Shown: one piece after another, positions 8,941-21,372 of the stretch
Position numbering within the stretch: the stretch's first letter is position 1
Layout of the letters: each line of letters begins with the position of its first letter
Assembly: GCF_001021385.1 (NCBI RefSeq)
Contig: NZ_CP011773.1
Span: 4,154,001-4,218,000, forward strand
Reading direction: 5' to 3'
DNA length: 64,000 nt
Source: Mycobacterium sp. EPa45
GTDB taxonomy: Bacteria > Actinomycetota > Actinomycetes > Mycobacteriales > Mycobacteriaceae
The notes under the pieces: model-generated
Seen by the model: only the letters and a program-made list of their open reading frames with translations
Database searches by the model: none
What the model was told of the DNA's origin: nothing
Position numbers and translations under genes: made by a program

Positions 8941-9693
8941 TTGGCAACCTCGATCTTCCACGACATGAAAAGAGAAGGACCGCTCTACGCGTTGTTTCTC
9001 AACTGTTCACTCAAGAGCTCTCCCGAGACATCGAACACCGACGCACTCTGCGATCTGCTCATCGAGCGGTTGCGGGCCCACGAACCCGACATCGAGACCG
9101 AGGTCGTCCGCGTCGTCGATTACAACGTCAAGCCTGGCGTCAGCAACGACGAGGGTGACGGCGACGAATGGCCGCAGATCCTGGAGAAAGTCAAGCGCTG
9201 CAACATCATCGTGCCGGCGATGCCGATCTGGATGGGTGTGCGTTCCTCGGTGATGCAACGGGTCATCGAAAGGCTCGACGGCACAACCAAGACGGTGATG
9301 TGCGAGAAGACCGGACAGTTTCCGCTGTACGGGACAGTGGCAGGCTGTGTGGTCACCGGCAACGAGGACGGCAGCCACGACTGCGTGGCGAACACCTTCG
9401 CGAACCTGCTGCACTTCGGTGTGACCGTCCCGCCCAACACCGACCTCTATTGGGTCGGAGACGCCGGGCCGGGCGCTAGTTACATCGAGGCGGGTGGCGA
9501 GTTGTCGCCCTATGTCCGGCGCAACGCCGAATTGACCGCCATCAACCTCCTCTTCGGGGCGAAACTGTTGCGCGACAACCCGTATCAGATCAACATCGCC
9601 GAGCTCAACGCGACGATGATGCGCCGTAACAAAGTCAAGGCGGATGCGATGAACCTCGCCATCAACTACATGCGCGAGCACATGCCCGACTGA
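8941..9693 (+). CDS. Flavodoxin/NADPH-dependent FMN reductase-like protein
   Basis: 250 aa from a TTG with GGAG 7 nt upstream. Alternatives are a GTG at 8899 and an ATG at 8965 (MKREGPLYALFLNCSLK). The flavodoxin-like fold is indicated by the N-terminal beta strand with a phosphate-binding-type loop (ALFLNCSLKSSPETSNTDAL), the NIIVPAMPIWMGVRSSVMQRVIERLDG segment, and GTVAGCVVTGNEDGSHDCVANTF. It is a probable FMN-dependent oxidoreductase of unknown substrate. The next gene follows 29 nt downstream on the same strand, so the two may form an operon. Confidence 0.8.
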   Translation: MATSIFHDMKREGPLYALFLNCSLKSSPETSNTDALCDLLIERLRAHEPDIETEVVRVVDYNVKPGVSNDEGDGDEWPQILEKVKRCNIIVPAMPIWMGVRSSVMQRVIERLDGTTKTVMCEKTGQFPLYGTVAGCVVTGNEDGSHDCVANTFANLLHFGVTVPPNTDLYWVGDAGPGASYIEAGGELSPYVRRNAELTAINLLFGAKLLRDNPYQINIAELNATMMRRNKVKADAMNLAINYMREHMPD

Positions 9694-9722
9694 TCGCCTG
9701 AATCGAAAGGTTGGAACCGGCC

Positions 9723-10382
9723 ATGCAGCTGCCAGAACTGGTTGAGGGCCTCGGCGTCGCCGACGTCGTCGACGCCATGGAGATGCAGCACCCCCATCGC
9801 GCTCACATCATCGAGCTCGCCAGTCCGGACCCGTCGCGAGTGCTCGTGGGTCGGGCGGTGACCGTCTCGTTTCTGCCGGTGCGCGCCGACCTCATGGACC
9901 CGCAGAAGCACAGTCTCGGTCCGGCGATATACCGGGCCGTCGCCGGGCACGATCCGGCCGGCGCCGTACTCGTGATGGCGGCGAACGGCTATCACGCGAC
10001 GTCGCTGGGTGGCGGCACGAAGCTCAGCCGCGTCGAGAACCTGGGTATGGCGGGCATTCTCGCCGACGGCATGCTCCGCGACTTCGAGGAGCTGCGAACC
10101 TACAACTTCGCGACCTACTGTCGCGGGGAGACGGTCCGCGCCGGCGGCAACGAAATCCAGCCGTACCTGGCCGACGTTCCCGTTGCGGTCGGGGGCGTCA
10201 CCGTCGTCCCCGGAGACGTCATCTTCGCGAAAGGCTCCACGGCCGTGGTGATCCCCGGCGCCGAGGCCGAACAGATCTTGACCAACGCCCGGGTCGTCAT
10301 GACGAAGATGGATCAGGCCAAAGAAGCCCTCAAGACCGAGGACCCGCAGGCTGTCCTGAGGCAGGGAAGCGGCGAACTTTAA
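9723..10382 (+). CDS. RraA-family protein
   Basis: 219 aa. It shows the RraA/4-hydroxy-4-methyl-2-oxoglutarate aldolase-like signature: GGTKLSRVENLGMAGILADGMLRDFEEL, with the DG-x-x-RD element lining the metal site, and a downstream PVAVGGVTVVPGDVIFA segment. The family includes class II pyruvate aldolases, oxaloacetate decarboxylases and the RNase E regulator RraA, so the exact reaction is open. The ATG is preceded by GAAAGG at 12 nt; a TTG 12 nt upstream is possible. It converges with hemW, the two stop codons overlapping by 4 bp. Confidence 0.8.
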   Translation: MQLPELVEGLGVADVVDAMEMQHPHRAHIIELASPDPSRVLVGRAVTVSFLPVRADLMDPQKHSLGPAIYRAVAGHDPAGAVLVMAANGYHATSLGGGTKLSRVENLGMAGILADGMLRDFEELRTYNFATYCRGETVRAGGNEIQPYLADVPVAVGGVTVVPGDVIFAKGSTAVVIPGAEAEQILTNARVVMTKMDQAKEALKTEDPQAVLRQGSGEL

Positions 10383-11554
10383 TCGTCGAGCAGGTCGCGC
10401 ACCACCGCGTCGGCCAGCAAGCGGCCCCTGTCGGTGAGCACCAGCCGATCCCCGACACCGCTCAACAAACCCTCCGCCACCGCCCGGCCGGCGCGCGCCC
10501 GTTCGGATTCCGTCAACACCGATACCGGCAGCCCACCGCCCAACCGAATCCCCAACAGCACGCTCTCGATGTGGCGGGCGTGAGCGTCGAGGCGCTCGAA
10601 ATCGGCCACCGGCAGCCGGCCCTCGGCGAGCTGCTCGGCATAAGCGCTCGGGTGCTTGACATTCCACCACCGGGTGTCGCCGACGAACCCGTGGGCTCCG
10701 GGCCCCGCGCCCCACCACTGCCCGCCGTTCCAGTAGCCGATGTTGTGCCGGCACTCCCCGCCGAGCCGGCTCCAGTTGGACACCTCGTACCAGTCCAGGC
10801 CGGCCGCCGACAGCCGCTTGTCGATCAGTTCGTAACGGTGGGCGAGCACGTCGTCGTCGGGCGCGCTGATCTCGCCCCGGCGCACCCGGCGTGCCAGCGC
10901 GGTGCCCTCCTCGACGACCAGTGCGTAGGCCGAGACGTGGTCGACGCCGGCGGTCAGCGCGGCGTCAAGCGAGCGCATGAGGTCGTCATCGGACTCCCCC
11001 GGCGTGCCGTAGATGAGGTCGAGGTTGAGGTGGTCGAAACCCGCGGCCGTCGCCTCGGCAGCGGCCTGCACCGCGCGGCCCGGGGAATGGGTCCGGTCCA
11101 GCACCGCCAGCACCCGTGGCGCAGTCGACTGCATGCCCAGCGACACCCGGGTGAAGCCGGCGGCCCGGATCTGCTCGAAGAACTCCGGCGATGTCGACTC
11201 CGGGTTGGCCTCGGTGGTCACTTCCGCCCCGTCGGCCAGCACGAAGTTGTCCCGCACAGCGCCCAGCACCTGGGTCAGGCCCGCACCCCCGAGCAGCGAC
11301 GGGGTGCCGCCGCCGACGAAGACCGTATCGACTGCCACCTCGCCCAGCAGTTCGGCAGTCAGTTCCAGCTCGGTGCGCAGTGCCGTCAGCCAGCCCTGCG
11401 GTGAGGCACCGCCCAGCTCGCCGGCCGTGTAGGTGTTGAAGTCGCAGTACCCGCAACGCGTGGCGCAGAACGGCACATGGACATAGACCCCGAACGCCGT
11501 GCCGGGCGTGAGGGCCAGTTCCGGTAGGGCGGTCGGTGCGGGACGGACCGACAT
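10379..11554 (-). CDS. hemW: HemW, radical SAM heme chaperone (formerly HemN-like)
   Basis: 391 aa. The radical SAM motif CxxxCxxC is at C30-C34-C37 (VPFCATRCGYC), followed by the extra Phe-Asn (CDFNTY) typical of HemW/HemN. GGGTPSLL and a HemN C-terminal domain (LGIRLGGGLP...) follow. Mycobacterial members of this branch are heme chaperones rather than true coproporphyrinogen dehydrogenases. It corresponds to Rv2388c next to sirA. The ATG chosen begins MSVRPAPTAL; in-frame extension upstream is possible but would run into the sirA leader region. Confidence 0.9.
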   Translation of the reverse strand: MSVRPAPTALPELALTPGTAFGVYVHVPFCATRCGYCDFNTYTAGELGGASPQGWLTALRTELELTAELLGEVAVDTVFVGGGTPSLLGGAGLTQVLGAVRDNFVLADGAEVTTEANPESTSPEFFEQIRAAGFTRVSLGMQSTAPRVLAVLDRTHSPGRAVQAAAEATAAGFDHLNLDLIYGTPGESDDDLMRSLDAALTAGVDHVSAYALVVEEGTALARRVRRGEISAPDDDVLAHRYELIDKRLSAAGLDWYEVSNWSRLGGECRHNIGYWNGGQWWGAGPGAHGFVGDTRWWNVKHPSAYAEQLAEGRLPVADFERLDAHARHIESVLLGIRLGGGLPVSVLTESERARAGRAVAEGLLSGVGDRLVLTDRGRLLADAVVRDLLDD

Positions 11555-11638
11555 GCTTCCAGTGTCGCAGAGCGGACTTTTACTCACGGCGAGCCAAAAT
11601 TTGGCCCGGTTAGAGCTATCGACGGGGTTCGTGGCAGA

Positions 11639-11740
11639 ATGGCCCGCATGACAGCCCCCCAGACCCTGCGCAGCCCTGCGCTGGTGGTGCGGCGGCATGT
11701 CGATTTCAAGCGCGTCTGTACCTGTTGTTGTCTGGCTTGA
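11639..11740 (+). CDS. Polycysteine leader peptide (uORF) upstream of sirA
   Basis: 33 codons from ATG 11639 (second in-frame ATG at 11648). The peptide ends VCTCCCLA: four Cys codons within the last seven residues, three of them consecutive TGT. Such polycysteine upstream ORFs have been described in mycobacteria as cysteine-responsive attenuators: ribosome progress through the Cys run reports Cys-tRNA supply. The stop lies 121 nt before the sirA ATG. No clear Shine-Dalgarno precedes the ORF, so a very short leader or leaderless initiation is likely. The ORF is too short for standard gene callers. Confidence 0.8.
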   Translation: MARMTAPQTLRSPALVVRRHVDFKRVCTCCCLA

Positions 11741-11834
11741 CGCCGTAGACCCGCCCACCTGTACTTCAGCTGGCCGACCGGATCTGCGCCGCCGGAACAC
11801 AGCTCACCGGTGGATTAGCGCGATTCGAACGCCA

Positions 11835-11854
11835 GCTCCTTGACCTTGAGGAGC
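11835..11854 (+). promoter_or_regulatory. Hairpin masking the sirA Shine-Dalgarno
   Basis: GCTCCT (11835-11840) and AGGAGC (11849-11854) form a perfect 6-bp stem with an 8-nt loop. The 3' arm is the sirA ribosome binding site (AGGAG, 8 nt before ATG 11862). This is the off-state expected of a translational attenuator controlled by the polycysteine uORF. Confidence 0.65.
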
Positions 11855-11861
11855 ACATTTC

Positions 11862-13535
11862 ATGAGTCAGCCGACAACGGCCGCGCCGAAGAAGCGCAGT
11901 GAGGGCCAGTGGGCCCTCGGCGAACGCGAGCCACTCAATCCCAACGAGCAGTTCAAGCAGGATGACGACGCACTCAACGTGCGCGCACGAATCCTCGACA
12001 CGTACTCCAAGCAGGGCTTCGACAGCATCGACAAGACCGATCTGCGGGGCCGGATGCGCTGGATGGGCCTCTACACCCAGCGTGAGCAGGGCTACGACGG
12101 CACCTTCACCGGCGACGAGAACGCCGAGCTGCTGGAAGCCAAGTACTTCATGATGCGGGTGCGCTGCGACGGCGGGGCGCTGTCGGCCGCCGCGCTGCGC
12201 ACCATCGGTGAGATCTCCACCGAGTTTGCCCGCGACACCGCCGACATCTCCGACCGCGAGAACGTCCAGTACCACTGGATTCGGATCGAGGACGTCCCGC
12301 AGATCTGGGAGCGGCTGGCCGCGGTGGGGCTGCAGACCACCGAAGCGTGCGGCGACTGCCCGCGCGTGGTGCTGGGCGGCCCGCTCAACGGCGAATCGGT
12401 CGACGAGGTGTTGGATCCATCCTGGGCGGTCGACGAGATCGTGCGCCGCTACATCGGCAACCCGTCGTTTTCCAACCTGCCGCGTAAGTACAAGACCGCG
12501 ATCTCGGGTCTGCAGGACGTCGCGCACGAGGTCAACGACATCGCGTTCATCGGGGTCAACCATCCCGAGCACGGTCCTGGCCTGGACATCTGGGTCGGCG
12601 GCGGGCTGTCCACCAATCCGATGCTCGCCCAGCGCCTGGGCGCGTGGGTGCCGCTGGACGAGGTGCCCGAGGTGTGGGAGGCCGTCACCTCGGTGTTCCG
12701 TGACTACGGCTATCGCCGGCTGCGCAGCAAGGCGCGGCTGAAGTTCCTCATCAAAGACTGGGGCGTAGAGAAGTTCAGGGAAGTTCTCGAAACGGAGTAC
12801 CTGGGTCGCAAGCTGATCGACGGCCCCGCGCCGGAGCCGCTGAAGCACCCGATCGACCACGTCGGCGTCCAGAAGCAGAAAAACGGGCTCAACGCCGTCG
12901 GCGTCGCGCCGATCGCGGGCCGCGTGACGGGCACGATCTTGACCAAGGTCGCCGACCTCGCGGAGGCCGCGGGCTCCGACCGGATCCGGCTCACGCCGTA
13001 TCAGAAGCTGGTCATCCTCGATGTCGCCGATGAAAAATTGGCCAGGCTGACCGAAGAACTGGACGCGCTGGGGCTGCCGTCGCGGCCGTCGTCGTGGCGC
13101 AAGAATCTGATGGCCTGCACGGGCATCGAGTACTGCAAGCTGTCGTTCGCCGAGACCCGCAACCGCGCTCAGGTACTGGTACCCGAACTCGAGCAGCGTT
13201 TGGAGGATCTCAACGCCCAGCTCGATGTACCCGTGACGGTCAACATCAACGGCTGCCCGAACTCCTGCGCCCGCATTCAGGTCGCCGACATCGGTTTCAA
13301 GGGCCAGATGGTCGACGACGGCGACGGTGACTCGGTGGAGGGCTTCCAGGTGCATCTGGGGGGCAGCCTGGGCCTGGACAGCGGTTTCGGACGCAAACTG
13401 CGCCAGCACAAGGTCACCAGCGAAGAGCTCGGTGACTACATCGAGCGGGTGGTCCGCAACTTCGTGAAACAAAGGAACGACGGAGAGCGTTTCGCCCAGT
13501 GGGCCGTACGGGCACAGGAAGAAGAGTTGCGATGA
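11862..13535 (+). CDS. sirA: Ferredoxin-dependent sulfite reductase SirA
   Basis: 557 aa, siroheme/[4Fe-4S] enzyme reducing sulfite to sulfide with six electrons from ferredoxin. Cluster ligands are visible as C419-x5-C425 (CTGIEYC) and C465-x3-C469 (CPNSC). Two ferrite-type half-repeats precede them. It is the orthologue of Rv2391, formerly called nirA. It has a strong AGGAG site, sequestered in a hairpin. It is followed by cysH with an ATGA overlap and then a siroheme chelatase, so substrate, enzyme and cofactor steps are in one operon. Confidence 0.95.
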   Translation: MSQPTTAAPKKRSEGQWALGEREPLNPNEQFKQDDDALNVRARILDTYSKQGFDSIDKTDLRGRMRWMGLYTQREQGYDGTFTGDENAELLEAKYFMMRVRCDGGALSAAALRTIGEISTEFARDTADISDRENVQYHWIRIEDVPQIWERLAAVGLQTTEACGDCPRVVLGGPLNGESVDEVLDPSWAVDEIVRRYIGNPSFSNLPRKYKTAISGLQDVAHEVNDIAFIGVNHPEHGPGLDIWVGGGLSTNPMLAQRLGAWVPLDEVPEVWEAVTSVFRDYGYRRLRSKARLKFLIKDWGVEKFREVLETEYLGRKLIDGPAPEPLKHPIDHVGVQKQKNGLNAVGVAPIAGRVTGTILTKVADLAEAAGSDRIRLTPYQKLVILDVADEKLARLTEELDALGLPSRPSSWRKNLMACTGIEYCKLSFAETRNRAQVLVPELEQRLEDLNAQLDVPVTVNINGCPNSCARIQVADIGFKGQMVDDGDGDSVEGFQVHLGGSLGLDSGFGRKLRQHKVTSEELGDYIERVVRNFVKQRNDGERFAQWAVRAQEEELR

Positions 13536-14245
13536 GTATTGGGGTGGAGCGAGTGACCGAGGCTGAGCTGCGGGAGCTTGCAGAACGTGGCGCCGCCGAA
13601 CTCGAGGGCGCCAGTGCGTTGGAGTTGTTGGCCTGGACCGACAAGCATTTCGGCGGTGAATACGTGGTGGCCTCCAATATGCAGGACGCGGTGCTGGTCG
13701 ATATGGCCGCCAAGGTGCGCCCCGGCGTGGACGTGCTGTTCCTGGATACCGGCTATCACTTCGCCGAGACGATCGGCACCCGCGACGCGGTCGAGGCGGT
13801 GTACGACATCCACGTCGTGAACGTCACACCCGAGCAGACTGTGGCCGAGCAGGACCAGCTGCTGGGTAAGGACCTCTTCGCCAGCAACCCGACCGAGTGC
13901 TGCCGGCTACGCAAGGTGGTACCGCTGAGCAAGGCTCTTCAGGGTTACACCGCCTGGGTCACCGGTATCCGCCGCGTCGAGGCGCCCACCCGCGCCAACG
14001 CGCCGCTCATCAGCTTCGACGAAGGCTTCAAGCTGGTGAAGATCAACCCGCTCGCTGCATGGAGCGACGAGGACATGGATGCCTACATCCAGGCCAACGG
14101 TGTGCTGGTGAATCCCCTTGTCGAAGAAGGGTATCCGTCGATCGGCTGCGCCCCGTGCACAGCGAAGCCGGTCGAGGGCGCCGATCCGCGCAGCGGACGC
14201 TGGCAGGGTTTGGCGAAAACAGAATGCGGCCTTCACGTTTCGTGA
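13532..14245 (+). CDS. cysH: Assimilatory adenylylsulfate (APS) reductase CysH
   Basis: 237 aa. It reduces activated sulfate to sulfite using thioredoxin. C123-C124 and C206-x2-C209 are the four ligands of the [4Fe-4S] cluster that distinguishes bacterial APS reductases from PAPS reductases of E. coli type. The catalytic Cys is C232 in the C-terminal ECGLH motif. LDTGYHF and TGIRRVEAPTRA bind the nucleotide/sulfate. The start overlaps the sirA stop (ATGA), indicating coupling. Confidence 0.95.
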   Translation: MSIGVERVTEAELRELAERGAAELEGASALELLAWTDKHFGGEYVVASNMQDAVLVDMAAKVRPGVDVLFLDTGYHFAETIGTRDAVEAVYDIHVVNVTPEQTVAEQDQLLGKDLFASNPTECCRLRKVVPLSKALQGYTAWVTGIRRVEAPTRANAPLISFDEGFKLVKINPLAAWSDEDMDAYIQANGVLVNPLVEEGYPSIGCAPCTAKPVEGADPRSGRWQGLAKTECGLHVS

Positions 14246-14946
14246 GGCTCATCCTCACCGCGCACGGCAGTGCCGATCCGCGCTCGGCGGTCACCACATA
14301 CGCGGTGGCCGAGCATGTCCGCGCGCTGCGGCCCGGGCTCGACGTGCGAGTGGCGTTCTGCGAGAAGCACGCCCCCAATCTCGGTGATGTCCTGCGCACA
14401 CTTGACGGCCCGGGGGTGGTCGCGCCGCTGCTGTTGGCGAGCGCGTATCACGCCCGCGTCGACATCCCGGCGATGATCGCCGATGCGGGTGTCGACGTGC
14501 TCCAAGCCGACACCCTGGGCGAAGATCTCCGCCTGTTGGCGGTCATGCGGGAACGCTTGGCGGAGTACCACATTCATCAGTTCGAGCGGGGGCTCGGCGT
14601 GCTCGTGGTGGCGGTCGGCTCGTCGCATGCCGCAGCCAACGCACGCACCGCGGCGCTCGCCGACACGTTGGGCCGCGGCACCCGCTGGTCGGGAGTCCAG
14701 GTCGCCTATGCGACCGGGCCGCAGCCCTCGGTGCAGGACGGCATCGAGCTGCTGCGTCAGCGTGGCGCGCGTCGGATCGTCGTGGCGCCGTGGTTCATCG
14801 CGCCGGGCCGCATCACCGACCGGGTGGCCGCGATCGCCGACGCCGCAGGCCTTCTCATGGTCGAGCCGTTGGGCGCGCATCGGCTGGTCGCCGAGACGGT
14901 GCTCGACCGCTTTGATCAGGCGTCAGCCTCCAGGGTCGCGGCCTAA
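14224..14946 (+). CDS. che1: Sirohydrochlorin ferrochelatase-like protein (CbiX/SirB family)
   Basis: 240 aa from ATG 14224; a GTG at 14242 overlapping the cysH stop (GTGA) is equally possible. There are two CbiX-like halves, each opening with a strand ending in a catalytic-type loop ([26 protein letters not shown]). The first keeps the His of the chelatase HG motif. [17 protein letters not shown] carries the second conserved His. It most likely inserts Fe(II) into sirohydrochlorin to supply siroheme to SirA. It corresponds to Rv2393 (che1). It converges with cysA, overlapping by 4 bp. Confidence 0.88.
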
Positions 14947-15965
14947 CTGGCCGCGACCTGGACCTCACCGGCGATCGGCGGCACCCGGGTGGCCCGCACG
15001 TACACACTGTCGCCCTCCTTGAGCCCCAGCGCCTCGGCGTCACCGCGGGTGATCTGCGCGGTGAACGGCGCCCCATTGGTGGCGCTGGTCAACTCCACGC
15101 GCACCTCGAAGCCCAGATAGACGACCCGGTCGATGGTGGCGCGCACGACGCCGGTCGATTCTGCCGTGCCGTCGCCGGCTGCGATCGCCATCTCGGGGTT
15201 GCGGCCCACGCGAATGTCGTGCGGGCGCACCAGTATTCCGTTGAGCGACGACACCGTGCCGAGGAACGACATCACGAACGCGTTGGCCGGGCTGTCGTAG
15301 ACCTCGGTCGGTGTGCCGACCTGCTCTACCTGTCCCTTGTTCAGGACGGCGATCCGGTCGGCAACGTCGAGTGCCTCGGCCTGGTCATGGGTGACGAGCA
15401 CCGTCGTGACATGCACCTCGTCGTGCAGGCGACGCAGCCAGGCCCGCAGATCCTCGCGGACCTTGGCGTCCAGCGCGCCGAACGGTTCGTCGAGCAGCAG
15501 TACCTCGGGATCGACGGCCAGCGCGCGAGCCAACGCCATCCGCTGGCGCTGGCCTCCGGAAAGCTGGTTGGGATAGCGGGTTTGGAACCCCGCCAGCCCG
15601 ACGACCTCGAGCAGGTTATCCACCTTGTCCTTGATCTCGGCCTTCGGCTTCTTGCGGATCTTGAGTCCGAACGCGACGTTGTCCCGCACCGTCAGGTGCT
15701 TGAACGCGGCGTAGTGCTGGAACACGAAGCCGATTCCACGCCGCTGCGGGGGCACGTTGGTGACGTCGCGCCCGTTGATCGTGATCTTGCCGGTGTCGGG
15801 TTGGTCCAATCCGGCGATGGCGCGCAGCAGCGTCGACTTCCCCGATCCGCTGGGGCCCAGCAGCGCGGTCAGCGAGCCGGCAGGCACCACGAAATCGACG
15901 TTGTCGAGGGCGGCGAAGTCGCCATAGCGCTTGTTGGCGCCGGTGACGGTGATGGCATTGGTCAT
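14943..15965 (-). CDS. cysA: Sulfate/thiosulfate ABC importer ATPase CysA
   Basis: 340 aa. It energises sulfate import. Walker A is GPSGSGKST, the signature is [16 protein letters not shown], Walker B is [12 protein letters not shown], and the H-loop His is in [12 protein letters not shown]-terminal TOBE-type regulatory domain follows (about 240-340). The ATG ([15 protein letters not shown]) was chosen over an in-frame upstream start lacking family similarity. It is the last gene of subI-cysT-cysW-cysA, 22 nt after cysW. Confidence 0.95.
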
Positions 15966-15987
15966 GAAAGACGTTCTCCTAGTCGGA

Positions 15988-16800
15988 TTACTCGCTCGCC
16001 TTGGCCCGCCGGGCATCCAGGATCACCTGGACGACCAGGACCAGTACCGCGACGGCCATCAGCAGCGTCGAGACGGCATAGGCGCCGTATTCGGCGCCGC
16101 GGCTGTAACGATCGGAAACCAGCAAGGTCATGGTTTGGGATGTGCCGGGCAGGTTGGAGGACACCATGATCACCGCCCCGTACTCACCCAGGGTTCGGGC
16201 GACGGTGAGCACGATGCCGTAGGTCAGTCCCCACCGGATCGAAGGCAGGGTGATCCGCCAGAAGGTCTGCCACCAGCTGGATCCCAGGGTGGCCGCCGCC
16301 TGCTCCTGATCGGTGCCGAGCTCGTGCAGGACCGGCTCGACCTCGCGGATCACGAAGGGAACGGTGACGAAGATGCTGGCCAATACGATGCCGGGAAAGC
16401 CGAAGATGATCTTCAGGCCGAGGTTGTTCTCGACGAATCCGAACAACCCCGCGCTTCCCCACAGCAGGATCAAGGCCACACCGACGACCACCGGCGACAC
16501 CGCGAACGGCAGGTCGATCACGGCCTGCAGCGCCGACTTGCCCCGGAACTTGTTGCGCGCCAGCACCAGCGCCGTCGGCACCCCGAAGATCACGTTGAGC
16601 GGCACCACGATCGCCACCACGAGCAGTGACAACTCCAGTGCCGAGATCGCGGCGGGCGTGCTGATGGACGCGACGAACGCGCCGAAGCCCGGCGCGAATG
16701 TCCGCCACAGAATCAGCCCGACCGGCACCAGAACGAGCACCAGGATGTAGGCCAGCGCGACATAGCGGAGCAGGAAGCGCACCAGGGGGGACAGGATCAT
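15988..16800 (-). CDS. cysW: Sulfate ABC importer permease CysW
   Basis: 270 aa with six predicted membrane helices and the EAA-type cytoplasmic loop ([23 protein letters not shown]) that contacts CysA. ATGA overlap with cysT. One of the two permease subunits of the sulfate/thiosulfate transporter. Confidence 0.94.
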
Positions 16801-17678
16801 ACCGACAACTCCTCCCGCTTGGCGGCGCGCGAACCGATCGCCCGCAAGATGAACAAGACGATGAACGAGAGCACTAGCAGCACAATCGAAATGGCGGCCG
16901 CGCCGGTGCGGTCGTCGTTCTCGATCAGCGTGCGGATCCACTGTGAGGAGACCTCGGTCTCCCCCGGCACCGCACCACCGATCAGCACCACCGAGCCGAA
17001 CTCACCGATCGCGCGGGAGAACGCCAGCCCGGCGCCCGACAGCAGGGAGGGTAGCAACGCGGGCAGCACCACTTTGGTGAAGATGACGAAATTCGTCGCA
17101 CCCAGCGACGCCGCTGCTTCCTCGACCTCCCGGTCGAGTTCGAGCAGCACCGGCTGAACCGAACGCACCACGAACGGCAGCGTGACGAACAGGAGCGCAA
17201 CGCCCACACCCCATTTGGTGTGCTGCAGGTGCAGGTCGATCGGGCTGTTGGGCCCGTAGAGCGCAAGCATGACCAGGCTCGCCACGATGGTGGGCAGTGC
17301 GAACGGCAGGTCGATCACCGCGTCGACCAGACGCTTACCCGGAAAGTCGTCGCGGGTGAGCACCCAGGCGACCAGCAGCCCGAACACCGCGTTGATCAGT
17401 GTGACCCCGACCGAGATGGTCAGCGTCACCCGGAACGACTCCAGCGCGGCGTTCGAGCTGACCGTCAGCCAGAAGGCGTGCCAACCGCCTTTGGCCGACT
17501 GCCACACGATCGCGGCGAGTGGCAGCAGGACGATGACGCTCAGCCAGATCGACGCGGCACCGACCCGCAGGCTCGTGGTGCCGTGCCTGCGGGTCAGGAA
17601 GCCGGACGGCCCGCCCGGCTCACTCGGGGTGAGCTCGGGCCGGACCGCCTGTGGATTTGGCTCGATAGCTGCTGTCAT
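16797..17678 (-). CDS. cysT: Sulfate ABC importer permease CysT
   Basis: 293 aa, six membrane helices. The EAA loop is EEAAASLGATNFVIFTKVVLPAL, followed by LAFSRAIGEFGSVV, characteristic of CysT/CysU. Its start overlaps the subI stop by 4 nt, and its own stop overlaps the cysW start. Confidence 0.94.
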   Translation of the reverse strand: MTAAIEPNPQAVRPELTPSEPGGPSGFLTRRHGTTSLRVGAASIWLSVIVLLPLAAIVWQSAKGGWHAFWLTVSSNAALESFRVTLTISVGVTLINAVFGLLVAWVLTRDDFPGKRLVDAVIDLPFALPTIVASLVMLALYGPNSPIDLHLQHTKWGVGVALLFVTLPFVVRSVQPVLLELDREVEEAAASLGATNFVIFTKVVLPALLPSLLSGAGLAFSRAIGEFGSVVLIGGAVPGETEVSSQWIRTLIENDDRTGAAAISIVLLVLSFIVLFILRAIGSRAAKREELSV

Positions 17679-18715
17679 CCAGTGGCCTGCTTGTAGATCT
17701 TCGTAATGGTGCCATTCTCCTTATCGAAGAGGGCGGGATCCACCTTGCTCCAGCCGCCGAGGTCGGCGATTGTCCACAATTTCTGCGGCGTCGGGAAGTC
17801 GGTGGCGAAATCGACGGCCACCGCCGGGTCGACCGGACGGAACCCGGCCTGGGCCCAGATCTTCTGTCCCTCGGCTGTATAGAGGTAGTTGTTCAGCGCG
17901 GTCGCCTTGTCCACGTGAGCGCTGGTGGTCACCACTGCCACCGGGTTCTCGATCTTGAACGTCTGCGGCGGATTGATGTGCTCGACCGGCTTGCCCTGAC
18001 GCTCGGTGTTGATGGCCTCGTTCTCGTAGCTGATCAGAACGTCACCGGTGCCCTGCAGGAACACGTCGGTGGCCTCCCGGCCCGAACCCGGTCGCGTCTT
18101 GACGTGCTCGGCCACCAGCTTGGTCACGAAGTCCAGGCCGGCCTGCTCGTCCTGACCGCCGTTGCTCTTGGCGGCGTACGGCGCCAACAGGTTCCACTTG
18201 GCCGAGCCGGAACTCAGCGGACTGGGCGTGACCACCTCGATGCCGGGCTGCAGCAGGTCGTCCCAGTCCTTGATGTTCTTCGGGTTGCCCTTGCGGACGA
18301 CCAACGTCACCACCGAGCCGAACGGGATGCCCTTGGTGGCGGACTTGTTCCAGTCGGCGGACACCTTGTTGGCCTTCACCAGACGGGTGACGTCCGGCTC
18401 GACCGAGAAGTTCACGATGTCGGCAGGCTTGCCGTCGACCACACCGCGCGACTGGTCACCGGAGGCGCCGTAGGAGGTCGTCACCGCGACACCCTTGCCC
18501 TCGGGGGTGGCCGCGAACGCCGGGATGATCTTGCTCCAGCCTGGCTCGGGCACGGCGTAGGCCACCAGCGTCAGCGTGGTGTCAGCCTTGGGCTGGTTTC
18601 CACCGCCGGCGACATCGCTCGAGCCGCCGCCACCGCAGGCGGCGAGCACCGTAGCGGTCGTCGCTAACGCGACGGCTGTACTCCACCGACGGACGGGAAT
18701 GTGGATCTTGGGCAT
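17675..18715 (-). CDS. subI: Sulfate-binding lipoprotein SubI
   Basis: 346 aa. The lipoprotein signal peptide has lipobox LAAC at about residues 24-27, followed by a Gly-rich linker and a periplasmic sulfate-binding fold (TLTLVAYAVPEPGWSKIIPAF; TSYGASGDQSRGV; GTGDVLISYENEA). It delivers sulfate to CysTW. GAAAGG 8 nt before the ATG. First gene of the importer operon. A 30-aa ORF ending in Cys-Cys-Arg precedes it by 119 nt. Confidence 0.94.
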   Translation of the reverse strand: MPKIHIPVRRWSTAVALATTATVLAACGGGGSSDVAGGGNQPKADTTLTLVAYAVPEPGWSKIIPAFAATPEGKGVAVTTSYGASGDQSRGVVDGKPADIVNFSVEPDVTRLVKANKVSADWNKSATKGIPFGSVVTLVVRKGNPKNIKDWDDLLQPGIEVVTPSPLSSGSAKWNLLAPYAAKSNGGQDEQAGLDFVTKLVAEHVKTRPGSGREATDVFLQGTGDVLISYENEAINTERQGKPVEHINPPQTFKIENPVAVVTTSAHVDKATALNNYLYTAEGQKIWAQAGFRPVDPAVAVDFATDFPTPQKLWTIADLGGWSKVDPALFDKENGTITKIYKQATG

Positions 18716-18834
18716 TGCTTGCCTTTCTCATTGCGGGTTACGGGCGAATCGAGCCCCGTCGCAACGGAATGGCGATGTTCGACAAACGAATGCCATGACA
18801 ATCACCGACACCAGACCGAGGACGGGTAAGGGTG

Positions 18835-18927
18835 TCAGCGACAACATGCAACATCAGCAACGGCCAACGCACCGACGGCAATGAGAGCCAGAATGTGGCC
18901 CTCGCCGTAGCCGGTCGCCGATTGCAT
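18835..18927 (-). CDS. Leaderless uORF ending in Cys-Cys upstream of subI
   Basis: 30 aa beginning MQSATGYGEGHI and ending ADVACCR. Two consecutive TGT codons lie immediately before the last sense codon. Its ATG is exactly 7 nt after a TANNNT -10 hexamer, so initiation is probably leaderless. The distance from stop to the subI start (119 nt) is nearly the same as from the polycysteine uORF to sirA (121 nt). This strongly suggests a second cysteine-responsive attenuator, controlling sulfate import. I did not find a perfect Shine-Dalgarno hairpin here. CCCGTC and GACGGG segments downstream of the stop could pair. Confidence 0.7.
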   Translation of the reverse strand: MQSATGYGEGHILALIAVGALAVADVACCR

Positions 18928-18934
18928 GGCGCGA

Positions 18935-18940
18935 AGCTTA
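18935..18940 (-). promoter_or_regulatory. -10 element of the leaderless subI-operon promoter
   Basis: On the minus strand TAAGCT lies 7 nt before ATG 18927. The spacing places the transcription start on the A of the uORF start codon. Confidence 0.6.
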
Positions 18941-18971
18941 ACAGAGAATCAGCGGACGACCAGTCGACCCA

Positions 18972-19049
18972 TCAGCGGTTTACCAGCCACAGCACGACGA
19001 CCAATACCAGCAGTGCTACCAGGGCGAGCGTGACGCGTGATCGGGGCAT
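18972..19049 (-). CDS. 25-aa single-span membrane peptide
   Basis: The peptide is MPRSRV followed by a continuous hydrophobic run (TLALVALLVLVVVLWLV) and NR, a positive-inside single-helix membrane peptide. AGGAG lies 8 nt before its ATG and overlaps the last codon and stop of the 64-aa gene upstream (19055-19249), with only 5 nt between stop and start. The tight spacing and ideal ribosome site support translation. No family is recognised. It may pair with the 64-aa membrane protein. Confidence 0.65.
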   Translation of the reverse strand: MPRSRVTLALVALLVLVVVLWLVNR

Positions 19050-19054
19050 CCCGT

Positions 19055-19249
19055 TCACTCCTGCGGCCGGTCAGCGTGACGCACCCGGCGCAACAGCCGG
19101 ATGCCGTTGCCCAGGATGGCGTCGATGACGAGCGCGATGAGATAGGCGAGCACCAGGACGACGGGCATGACGATGATCGTCTGGACGACGAAACCCAGGC
19201 CCGACAACCACAGTTCGACGCCGTCCCACCAACTCAGCAGTCCCTGCAT
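19055..19249 (-). CDS. Small membrane protein (Rv2401A-like)
   Basis: 64 aa. A hydrophobic helix at about 20-47 (VVQTIIVMPVVLVLAYLIALVI) and a basic C-terminus (RLLRRVRHADR) are visible; an amphipathic Trp-rich N-terminus precedes the helix. Position between the sulfate importer and the trehalase matches Rv2401A. Function unknown. It is followed by a 25-aa membrane peptide whose ribosome site overlaps this gene's end. Confidence 0.75.
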   Translation of the reverse strand: MQGLLSWWDGVELWLSGLGFVVQTIIVMPVVLVLAYLIALVIDAILGNGIRLLRRVRHADRPQE

Positions 19250-19359
19250 CGCACCAGCGTATGCCGCGGCCGCCGCCGACTACTTGCCGGTGGTAACAGC
19301 AAAGCCACGGATCAAGGCATAAGTGGACGCCAAGCGGCTCCGCGGTCGATGATGTCCCC

Positions 19360-21372
19360 ATGGTTCTGCAAGCCCAGCCGGCCGGAGAGAACACCGACAC
19401 CGTGCGCGTCCAGACGCCCCCGCCGTTGTCCGTGACGGCCCCGGTACCGTATGCCTCGCCCGCTGCGCTGCGCAACCCTTTTCCGCCGATCGCGGACTAC
19501 GGTTTCCTCTCCGACTGCGAGAACACCTGCCTGATCTCGTCGGCGGGCGCCGTGGAATGGCTGTGCGTTCCCCGCCCTGACTCCCCCAGCGTTTTCGGGG
19601 CGATTCTGGACCGCGGCGCCGGGCACTTCCGGTTGGGGCCCTACGGGGTCTCGGTTCCGGCGGCCCGCCGCTATCTGCCCGGCAGTCTCATCCTCGAGAC
19701 GACCTGGCAGACCCACACCGGCTGGCTGATCGTGCGGGAGGCCCTCGTGATGGGTCCGTGGCACGACATCGAGGCGCGGTCCAGGACGCACCGGCGCACC
19801 CCGATGGACTGGGATGCCGAGCACATCCTGCTGCGCACCGTGCGCTGTGTGAGCGGCACTGTCGAGGTGGTGATGAACTGCGAGCCCTCGTTCGACTACG
19901 GCCGGGTCAACGCCACCTGGGAGTACTCCGCCAATGCCTACGGCGAGGCGATCGCACGGGCCCGCAAGGATCCGGACGCCAACCCCACACTGCGGCTGAC
20001 CACCAATCTGCGCATCGGTCTCGAGGGCCGGGAAGCACGCGCGCGTACCCGCCTCAAGGAGGGCGACAACGTCTTCGTCGCCCTGTCCTGGTCGAAGCAT
20101 CCGTCGCCGCAGACCTACGAAGAAGCCGCCGACAAGATGTGGCAGACCAGCGAGGCGTGGCGACAGTGGATCAACATCGGCGACTTCCCCGACCACCCGT
20201 GGCGGTCCTACCTCCAGCGCAGTGCGCTCACCCTCAAGGGGCTGACGTATTCGCCGACCGGCGCACTGCTCGCCGCCTCAACCACATCTCTGCCCGAGAC
20301 TCCGCAGGGCGAACGCAACTGGGACTATCGCTACGCCTGGGTGCGTGACTCGACGTTCGCGTTGTGGGGCCTCTACACCCTCGGCCTGGATCGCGAGGCC
20401 GACGATTTCTTCGCCTTCATCGCCGATGTGTCGGGCGCCAACAACGGTGAACGGCATCCGCTGCAGGTGATGTACGCCGTCGGCGGCGAGCGTGAACTCG
20501 TCGAAGAAGAACTGCACCACCTTTCCGGCTACGACAATGCCCGGCCGGTGCGCATCGGCAACGGCGCGTACAACCAGATGCAGCACGACATCTGGGGCAC
20601 CATGCTCGACTCGGTGTACCTGCACGCGAAGTCACGCGAGCAGATCTCCGATCAGCTCTGGCCGGTGCTCAAGGAGCAGGTCGAAGAGGCGATCAAGCAC
20701 TGGAAGGAGCCCGACCGCGGGATCTGGGAGGTGCGCGGCGAACCGCAGCACTTCACCTCGTCGAAGGTGATGTGCTGGGTGGCGCTGGATCGCGGCTCCA
20801 AGCTGGCCGAGCTGGTCGGCGAGAAGAGTTACGCACAGCAGTGGCGGGCGATCGCCGAGGAGATCAAGGCCGACATCCTGACGCACGGGGTCGACCAGCG
20901 CGGGGTGCTCACCCAGCGCTACGGCGATGACGCCCTGGACGCATCACTGCTGCTGGTCCCGTTGGTGCGGTTCCTGCCGTCGGACGACCCGCGGGTGCGG
21001 GCCACCGTGCTGGCGATCGCCGACGAGCTCACCGAGGACGGGTTGGTGTTGCGCTACCGCGTCGAGGAGACCGACGACGGCCTCTCCGGCGAGGAAGGCT
21101 CGTTCACGATCTGTTCGTTCTGGCTGGTGTCGGCGCTGGTCGAGATCGGCGAGGTGAGCCGGGCCCGGCATCTGTGCGAGCGGCTGCTGTCGTTCGCCAG
21201 CCCGCTGCATCTGTACGCCGAGGAAATCGAGCCGCGGACCGGCCGGCACCTGGGCAACTTCCCGCAGGCATTCACCCACCTGGCGTTGATCAACGCGGTG
21301 GTGCACGTGATCCGCGCCGAGGAAGAAGCCGACAGCACCGGAGGGTTCCAGCCGGCGAACGCGCCGATGTAG
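19360..21372 (+). CDS. Glycoside hydrolase family 15 protein, probable trehalase
   Basis: 670 aa, cytosolic. The (alpha/alpha)6 GH15 domain shows NWDYRYAWVRDSTFALWGLYTLG (about 325-347) and, in the C-terminal half, the catalytic-type RGIWEVRGEPQHFTSSKVMCWVALDRG and EEGSFTICSFWLVSALVEIG. It corresponds to Rv2402; mycobacterial members of this branch hydrolyse trehalose and need phosphate and Mg2+. The N-terminal about 40 residues are a low-complexity Pro/Ala extension, so a later start cannot be excluded. Confidence 0.88.
   Translation: MVLQAQPAGENTDTVRVQTPPPLSVTAPVPYASPAALRNPFPPIADYGFLSDCENTCLISSAGAVEWLCVPRPDSPSVFGAILDRGAGHFRLGPYGVSVPAARRYLPGSLILETTWQTHTGWLIVREALVMGPWHDIEARSRTHRRTPMDWDAEHILLRTVRCVSGTVEVVMNCEPSFDYGRVNATWEYSANAYGEAIARARKDPDANPTLRLTTNLRIGLEGREARARTRLKEGDNVFVALSWSKHPSPQTYEEAADKMWQTSEAWRQWINIGDFPDHPWRSYLQRSALTLKGLTYSPTGALLAASTTSLPETPQGERNWDYRYAWVRDSTFALWGLYTLGLDREADDFFAFIADVSGANNGERHPLQVMYAVGGERELVEEELHHLSGYDNARPVRIGNGAYNQMQHDIWGTMLDSVYLHAKSREQISDQLWPVLKEQVEEAIKHWKEPDRGIWEVRGEPQHFTSSKVMCWVALDRGSKLAELVGEKSYAQQWRAIAEEIKADILTHGVDQRGVLTQRYGDDALDASLLLVPLVRFLPSDDPRVRATVLAIADELTEDGLVLRYRVEETDDGLSGEEGSFTICSFWLVSALVEIGEVSRARHLCERLLSFASPLHLYAEEIEPRTGRHLGNFPQAFTHLALINAVVHVIRAEEEADSTGGFQPANAPM

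Follow-up and report, generated by a model that had tools for sequence, protein, structure and literature searches.

The leader of sirA in Mycobacterium sp. EPa45 is very probably a translational attenuator that responds to cysteine and is orthologous to the Ms4527A leader of the literature. It is located in the window, the whole stretch of 64,000 nucleotides analyzed here, where a short upstream open reading frame (uORF) with a run of Cys codons near its end precedes sirA and cysH (Table 1). The ATG of cysH overlaps the stop codon of sirA, and the name sirA was adopted from the initial annotation of the sequence and from the gene order with cysH.

Table 1 Features of the sirA leader, the downstream genes, and the related leaders of the same genome.
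Feature	Coordinates	Strand	Basis and remarks
-10-like element CAGAAT within GGCAGAAT	11635-11640	+	Conserved GGCANAAT, here 7 nt 5' of the ATG
uORF, probably leaderless, 30 codons, MTAPQTLRSPALVVRRHVDFKRVCTCCCLA and stop	11648-11740	+	Ms4527A-type Cys-rich leader peptide; profile and coding selection
Cys sensor codons TGT ACC TGT TGT TGT	11717-11731	+	Cys at 11717-11719 and 11723-11731
Tract arm of a long-range helix predicted to form with sirA codons 2-7 (11866-11881)	11724-11741	+	16 pairs, two bulges
Predicted stem H1, CGTAGA:TCTGCG plus inner pairs	11744-11788	+	MFE structure; starts 4 nt past the uORF stop
Predicted long hairpin AGCTGGC...GCCAGCT	11768-11837	+	Alternative to H1; shares GCT 11835-11837 with the anti-SD arm
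Hairpin of anti-SD GCTCCT (11835-11840) with SD AGGAGC (11849-11854)	11835-11854	+	Exact complements, 8-nt gap
sirA, ferredoxin nitrite/sulfite reductase family (NirA/SirA)	11862-13535	+	NCBIfam nitrite/sulfite reductase matches, all under curated cut-offs
cysH, (phospho)adenylylsulfate reductase	13532-14245	+	NF002537, 274.4 bits (cut-off 154); TIGR02055, 252.3 bits (cut-off 235.3)
subI-like sulfate transporter gene	17678-18715		TIGR00971, 171 bits (cut-off 155.5)
Further Cys leader in the window, MQSATGYGEGHILALIAVGALAVADVACCR and stop	18835-18927	-	NF042937, Ms4533A family, 46.9 bits (above the cut-off of 31)
Ms5788A-family leader (NF042933)	G000:C1:5348472-5348549, same genome		53 bits (cut-off 45)

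The Cys-rich uORF and its codons

A frame of 33 codons, whose peptide ends in RVCTCCCLA, was read directly from the plus strand at 11639-11740. The initial annotation had reported a 33-codon ORF with the ending VCTCCCLA; the frame is present as described, while its start was probably placed three codons too far upstream. Since 11639-11641 overlaps the conserved -10-like hexamer, the second ATG, at 11648, is most likely the true start, and the uORF of 30 codons that begins there is most likely leaderless. Among the relatives, GGCANAAT followed after 6 or 7 nt by RTG was found in 100/100 distinct leaders, and this RTG is in frame with the Cys codons in every one of the 100. The start codon chosen in this way, 6-7 nt after GGCANAAT, is GTG in 86 leaders and ATG in 14. 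A generic sigma-70 scan returned no promoter in 11500-12000. The pattern TGYTGYTGY-N6-TGA, which describes the end of the uORF, occurs twice in the window, against 0.04 occurrences expected.

Judged by the substitutions in 16 core codons of the 100 leaders, the uORF frame is selected as protein-coding, with a pN/pS of 0.165, whereas the two alternative frames give 1.71 and 2.85. A second conserved ORF, at 11697-11843, was considered and rejected: by eye, indels shift its frame between leaders, and the +1 frame is open in just 13/28 and 34/57 leaders of the groups to which the window leader does not belong. The number of Cys codons varies, with three in 29 leaders, four in 60, five in 5, and six in 6 (n = 100), and the third position of the run C-x-C-C-C can be occupied by Ser, Arg, Ile, or Gly.

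The end of the uORF is also marked by its codon choice. At 11717-11740, rare synonymous codons (TGT and CCT or GCT) are fixed at set positions across the 100 leaders. The last Cys codon is TGT in 95/100 leaders, and CCT or GCT precedes the stop codon in 84/100; in the sirA genes of the same loci, TGT accounts for 8.1% of the Cys codons, CCT for 2.7% of the Pro codons, and GCT for 3.4% of the Ala codons. When the stop codon is counted as -1, a third-base T is found at codons -4, -6, and -2 in 99, 95, and 88 of 100 leaders (5.8% in sirA) and at codon -5 in just 26/100, counts that are not independent since the leaders are kin sequences. This pattern could stem from rare codons or from RNA pairing. 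We read its position-specific nature, with codon -5 exempt, as favoring an RNA constraint, and the third-base T at the uORF end suggests selection at the nucleotide level.

Family assignment and distribution

Against the NCBIfam family NF042936 ("Ms4527A family Cys-rich leader peptide"), the window peptide scores 43.2 bits (E-value 2.1e-11), 1.8 bits short of the curated cut-off of 45. The alignment covers profile positions 2-20 of 21, and the placement upstream of sirA/nirA is that of the family. In a six-frame search of the genome with this profile, the sirA locus was the sole match at E 0.01 (41.8 bits). Ten peptides of relatives, chosen from the 100, were tried, and all ten reach the cut-off, the lowest with 45.1 bits. 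Shell et al. (2015, PLoS Genet Fig 7C, PMC4633059) describe a conserved leaderless uORF upstream of nirA/Msmeg_4527 and propose cysteine-directed attenuation. The NF042936 match and this published uORF together mark the sirA leader as a known element in its known position. With the coding selection in the frame, these results bear out the initial proposal of a polycysteine uORF before sirA, from a family that has been described as a cysteine-responsive attenuator.

The trp and leu operons of enterobacteria are controlled by amino-acid attenuators. The polycysteine attenuator mechanism was reportedly tested in M. smegmatis by Canestrari et al. in 2020 (Mol Microbiol), and sirA/Ms4527A was reportedly among the loci that responded in that work. 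Attenuation through contiguous Cys codons is described in PMC9031893, the conservation of the cysteine attenuator in M. tuberculosis in PMC9094748, and the translation attenuation of several M. smegmatis cysteine genes in PMC13236596. These systems and the sirA leader are alike in having a short ORF, probably leaderless in the sirA leader, with contiguous Cys codons and a cysteine-metabolism operon downstream. The response was shown in M. smegmatis, another species, and the RNA partners in the lineage of the window may differ.

Compared with the Ms4527A family (PMC4633059), the downstream gene and the peptide core LVxRRHxDxKRVCxCxC are shared, and so are the probably leaderless start and the terminal Cys codons. 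On the other hand, the window uORF ends in LA, not LP, and starts with ATG, whereas 86/100 relatives start with GTG. In ilvB1 of M. tuberculosis, a uORF-governed transcription attenuator according to PMC13236596, and in the trp/leu attenuators, the operon downstream is controlled through sensor codons of a leader peptide, as is proposed here. These attenuators act via transcription termination, whereas no terminator-like site was found at the sirA leader (11500-12000).

The uORF motif was found in 77/80 loci fetched by the SirA protein and in 30/30 loci fetched by leader DNA, i.e., in 107/110 sirA loci. The former are the best 80 of 575 and are unbiased for the presence of the motif, while the latter (L001-L030) were picked by leader similarity. 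Some genomes occur in both sets, and after identical leaders were merged, the 107 motif-bearing loci yielded the 100 distinct leaders. The three loci without the motif (L081, L094, and L106) were dropped from later counts, and L009 was too short for the tree. Upstream of sirA in L081, similar leader DNA is seen, from which the in-frame motif is absent.

Across the order, a SirA match was obtained in 57/61 genomes, and 30 of these loci were opened. The motif was present in 5/5 loci of the same genus and 2/2 of the same family; in other families, a scan detected a related RREVDLVRV...CC peptide in 2/23 loci, and among five upstream stretches viewed by eye, that of L155, outside the family, carries a one-Cys version. 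The related RRxVDxxRV peptides noted before sirA in L155, L158, and L163, which belong to other families of the order, have one or two Cys codons and suggest that the leader family predates its polycysteine form.

The Shine-Dalgarno hairpin and other predicted folds

The untranslated leader between the uORF and sirA is 121 nt long and largely conserved. The initial annotation had paired GCTCCT perfectly with AGGAGC at the ribosome site of sirA; this pairing was confirmed, and the predicted stem has a folding energy of -11.0 kcal/mol with one additional T.G pair. When the 32 nt upstream of the Shine-Dalgarno sequence (SD) of the window leader (L001) were shuffled, an equally long hairpin arose in 2.5% of 200 shuffles. 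Between the Cys codons and the hairpin lie ~100 nt, which are themselves conserved over much of their length.

At least five Watson-Crick pairs with the SD are formed in 42/100 leaders, comprising 38/49 of the HVDF type, 2/47 of the HIDL type, and 2/4 others. Judged by this occurrence, the SD-masking hairpin is limited to particular lineages, and a role as the generally conserved switch is not supported. An anti-SD hairpin as initially proposed is supported in the lineage of the window only. The mean local accessibility of the SD is 0.17 in the 42 hairpin leaders (0.41 in shuffles) and 0.48 in the 58 hairpin-less leaders (0.45 in shuffles). Of the stem registers in the 42 leaders, 19 are GGCTCC:GGAGCC, 14 are GCTCCT:AGGAGC, and 9 are others, with the core retained; the four core pairs are standard in 42/42 aligned leaders, three of which (L013, L019, and L086) seem out of register in alignment A2. 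Paired bases fill 85.7% of the cells of the SD stem, and both the paired cells and the covariation score lie above 500/500 shuffles, in tests that, like the other shuffle tests, ignore the relatedness of the leaders. Only one two-sided pair change was observed in the stem, which was matched by 433/500 shuffles, and a stem slid by -1 gave a higher covariation score than the real register. On the sirA tree of 99 leaders, the hairpin trait underwent at least eight changes.

Two further folds are predicted between the uORF and the SD hairpin. Stem H1 alone has a folding energy of -15.8 kcal/mol and 85.1% of its cells paired in the 42 leaders, among which it shows no double changes and a covariation score within that of the shuffles (469 of 500). 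The long hairpin alone reaches -33.2 kcal/mol; 94.9% of its cells are paired in the 42 leaders (94.5% in shuffles and 28-41% in slid versions), its covariation score was matched by 120/500 shuffles, and its two double changes by 37/500. A single consensus structure for all 100 leaders was rejected: the RNAalifold result was weak (-5.5 kcal/mol) and contained no double changes. Rfam gave no match at the gathering threshold.

The effect of a ribosome on these folds was modeled by equilibrium folding of the RNA beyond the ribosome edge. In the window leader, the SD accessibility was at most 0.07 while the edge covered the Cys codons or had just passed them, 0.22-0.46 with the edge 6-27 nt past the uORF stop, and ~0.5 once the anti-SD arm had itself been removed by the edge. 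For edges on or shortly after the Cys codons, the mean accessibility stayed at 0.11-0.13 in the group of the window (n = 13) and at 0.26-0.27 in the remaining hairpin leaders (n = 29), which does not support the initial claim that stalling on the Cys codons releases the hairpin. In the 58 hairpin-less leaders, the mean was 0.42-0.44 for edges -60 to -51, 0.36 for -30, and 0.46-0.47 for -6 to 0; in this model, the rise is small and non-monotonic. By simple folding, stall-release is thus weakly supported at most in the lineages that lack the hairpin and unsupported in that of the window.

Proposed mechanism, alternatives, and related leaders

In the proposed mechanism, the transcript would start at ATG 11648, placed by the conserved promoter-like element, and ribosomes would load on the leaderless uORF. 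When Cys-tRNA is sufficient, ribosomes would finish at 11740, the leader would fold, and sirA-cysH would be poorly translated. When Cys-tRNA is too scarce, ribosomes would stall on 11717-11731, the tract would be kept from its pairings, and the sirA start would open. In the lineage of the window, the SD of sirA sits in a predicted hairpin of 6-7 bp, and the candidate intermediates between the stall, ~100 nt upstream, and the opening of this hairpin are the long hairpin and the helix of the tract with the sirA codons. Since equilibrium folding did not open the SD at a Cys-codon stall, the switch step is putative here.

The SD hairpin could instead be a constitutive lid that keeps the basal rate of sirA low, with the cysteine response of this lineage exerted through base pairing between the Cys tract and the first codons of sirA; a stalled ribosome would block this pairing. 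We consider this arrangement conceivable but somewhat unlikely. The MFE structure of the window leader joins the tract to sirA codons 2-7 for ribosome edges -60 to -12, and in the group of the window the tract:sirA pairing is better than in synonymous variants (mean z -1.31; p < 0.05 in 4/13). However, the pairing in the window leader alone is not above the controls (p = 0.21 and 0.067), and the synonymous tests are adverse outside this group, with a mean z of +0.45 in the 29 other hairpin leaders (0/29 at p < 0.05) and +0.40 in the 58 hairpin-less leaders (1/58). A general helix between the tract and the TIR was rejected, as matched partners pair no better than mismatched ones across the 100 leaders (0.492 of the mismatched equal them); individually, this pairing reaches p < 0.05 in 13/100 leaders versus 3/100 in a control region. 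A general mask formed by the uORF end on the SD region was rejected as well, since in each of the three groups synonymous tails pair better with this region than the real ones (mean z of the real tails +1.52, +1.51, and +0.73; p < 0.05 in 0/13, 0/29, and 3/58). The pentamer ACAGC, which is complementary to the GCUGU of the tract, is present within the leader in 33/42 hairpin leaders and 17/58 hairpin-less leaders, and in sirA codons 1-8 of 39/58 hairpin-less leaders versus 2/42 hairpin leaders (background, 130/6234 windows). At sirA codon 3, the rare Thr codon ACA is used in 40/58 hairpin-less leaders (background, 2.5%), which also speaks for a role of the first sirA codons. Nevertheless, in the synonymous test of the hairpin-less leaders the ACA codon is not reflected in stronger overall pairing, and the tree leaves too few independent contrasts, with fewer than six informative independent pairs for the anti-correlation between the hairpin and ACAGC in sirA. 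Given the adverse synonymous tests outside the group of the window, it is unlikely, in our estimate, that a constant sensor peptide is combined with a masking RNA rebuilt between lineages. In the HVDF type, this mask would consist of a local SD hairpin and a long hairpin upstream that competes with it; in the HIDL type, the Cys tract would pair with the start of sirA via the rare ACA codon 3.

Control might also be exerted on transcription, through Rho- or structure-dependent termination in the untranslated leader, with read-through set by the ribosomes on the uORF. The 121 untranslated nucleotides and the precedent of ilvB1 in M. tuberculosis (PMC13236596) are in line with this possibility, whereas a scan for intrinsic terminators, which does not cover Rho sites, found no such site in 11500-12000, and the same source describes the cysteine leaders as translation attenuation; we regard transcriptional control as quite unlikely. 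Extremely improbable, in our view, is a +1 slip at hungry Cys codons, after which the ribosome would read to the TGA at 11841-11843 in the hairpin, melt it, and re-initiate at sirA. In 12/13 leaders of the window's group (44% in shuffles), which are close relatives, the +1 frame runs without a stop at least to within 30 nt of sirA, and it does so in 34/57 hairpin-less leaders (44% in shuffles) but in only 13/28 of the other hairpin group (49% in shuffles).

With a sirA leader that acts as a cysteine-responsive translational attenuator, this genome would join those with a published cysteine regulon. Leaders of the Ms4533A (NF042937) and Ms5788A (NF042933) families are both found in this genome and belong to the same presumed regulon, while their peptides and downstream genes differ from those of the sirA leader. 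The Ms4533A-type leader (18927-18835, minus strand) has only two adjacent Cys codons and lies 119 nt before subI, the sulfate transporter gene; TTAAGC is seen shortly upstream of the ATG of this leader. The Ms5788A-family leader (L174 1486-1587) ends in CCCCCCSC. The 100 aligned natural variants of the sirA attenuator, with Cys tracts of 3-6 codons and with or without the SD hairpin, would be suitable for testing what is displaced by a ribosome stalled on the Cys codons.

Of the 42 genomic sites with TGYTGYTGY-N6-TGA, 30 were inspected as possible uORFs, and by peptide only that of sirA fits; the leaderless test TA...T flagged none of these 30 loci, that of sirA included. The Ms5788A-family leader sits at one of the 12 uninspected sites and was detected by its profile. 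The pattern H[VIM]D[LF]xR gave two matches, the second of which was rejected because, by eye, it falls within an inverted repeat that follows another gene. Pfam gave no match for four leader peptides, and no tRNA was found in 9000-20000. Just past the window, TGTTGTTGCCGGAGTTGA occurs six times with a spacing of ~1.4 kb (G000:C1:4219108-4226201), probably as part of a tandem repeat of larger units.
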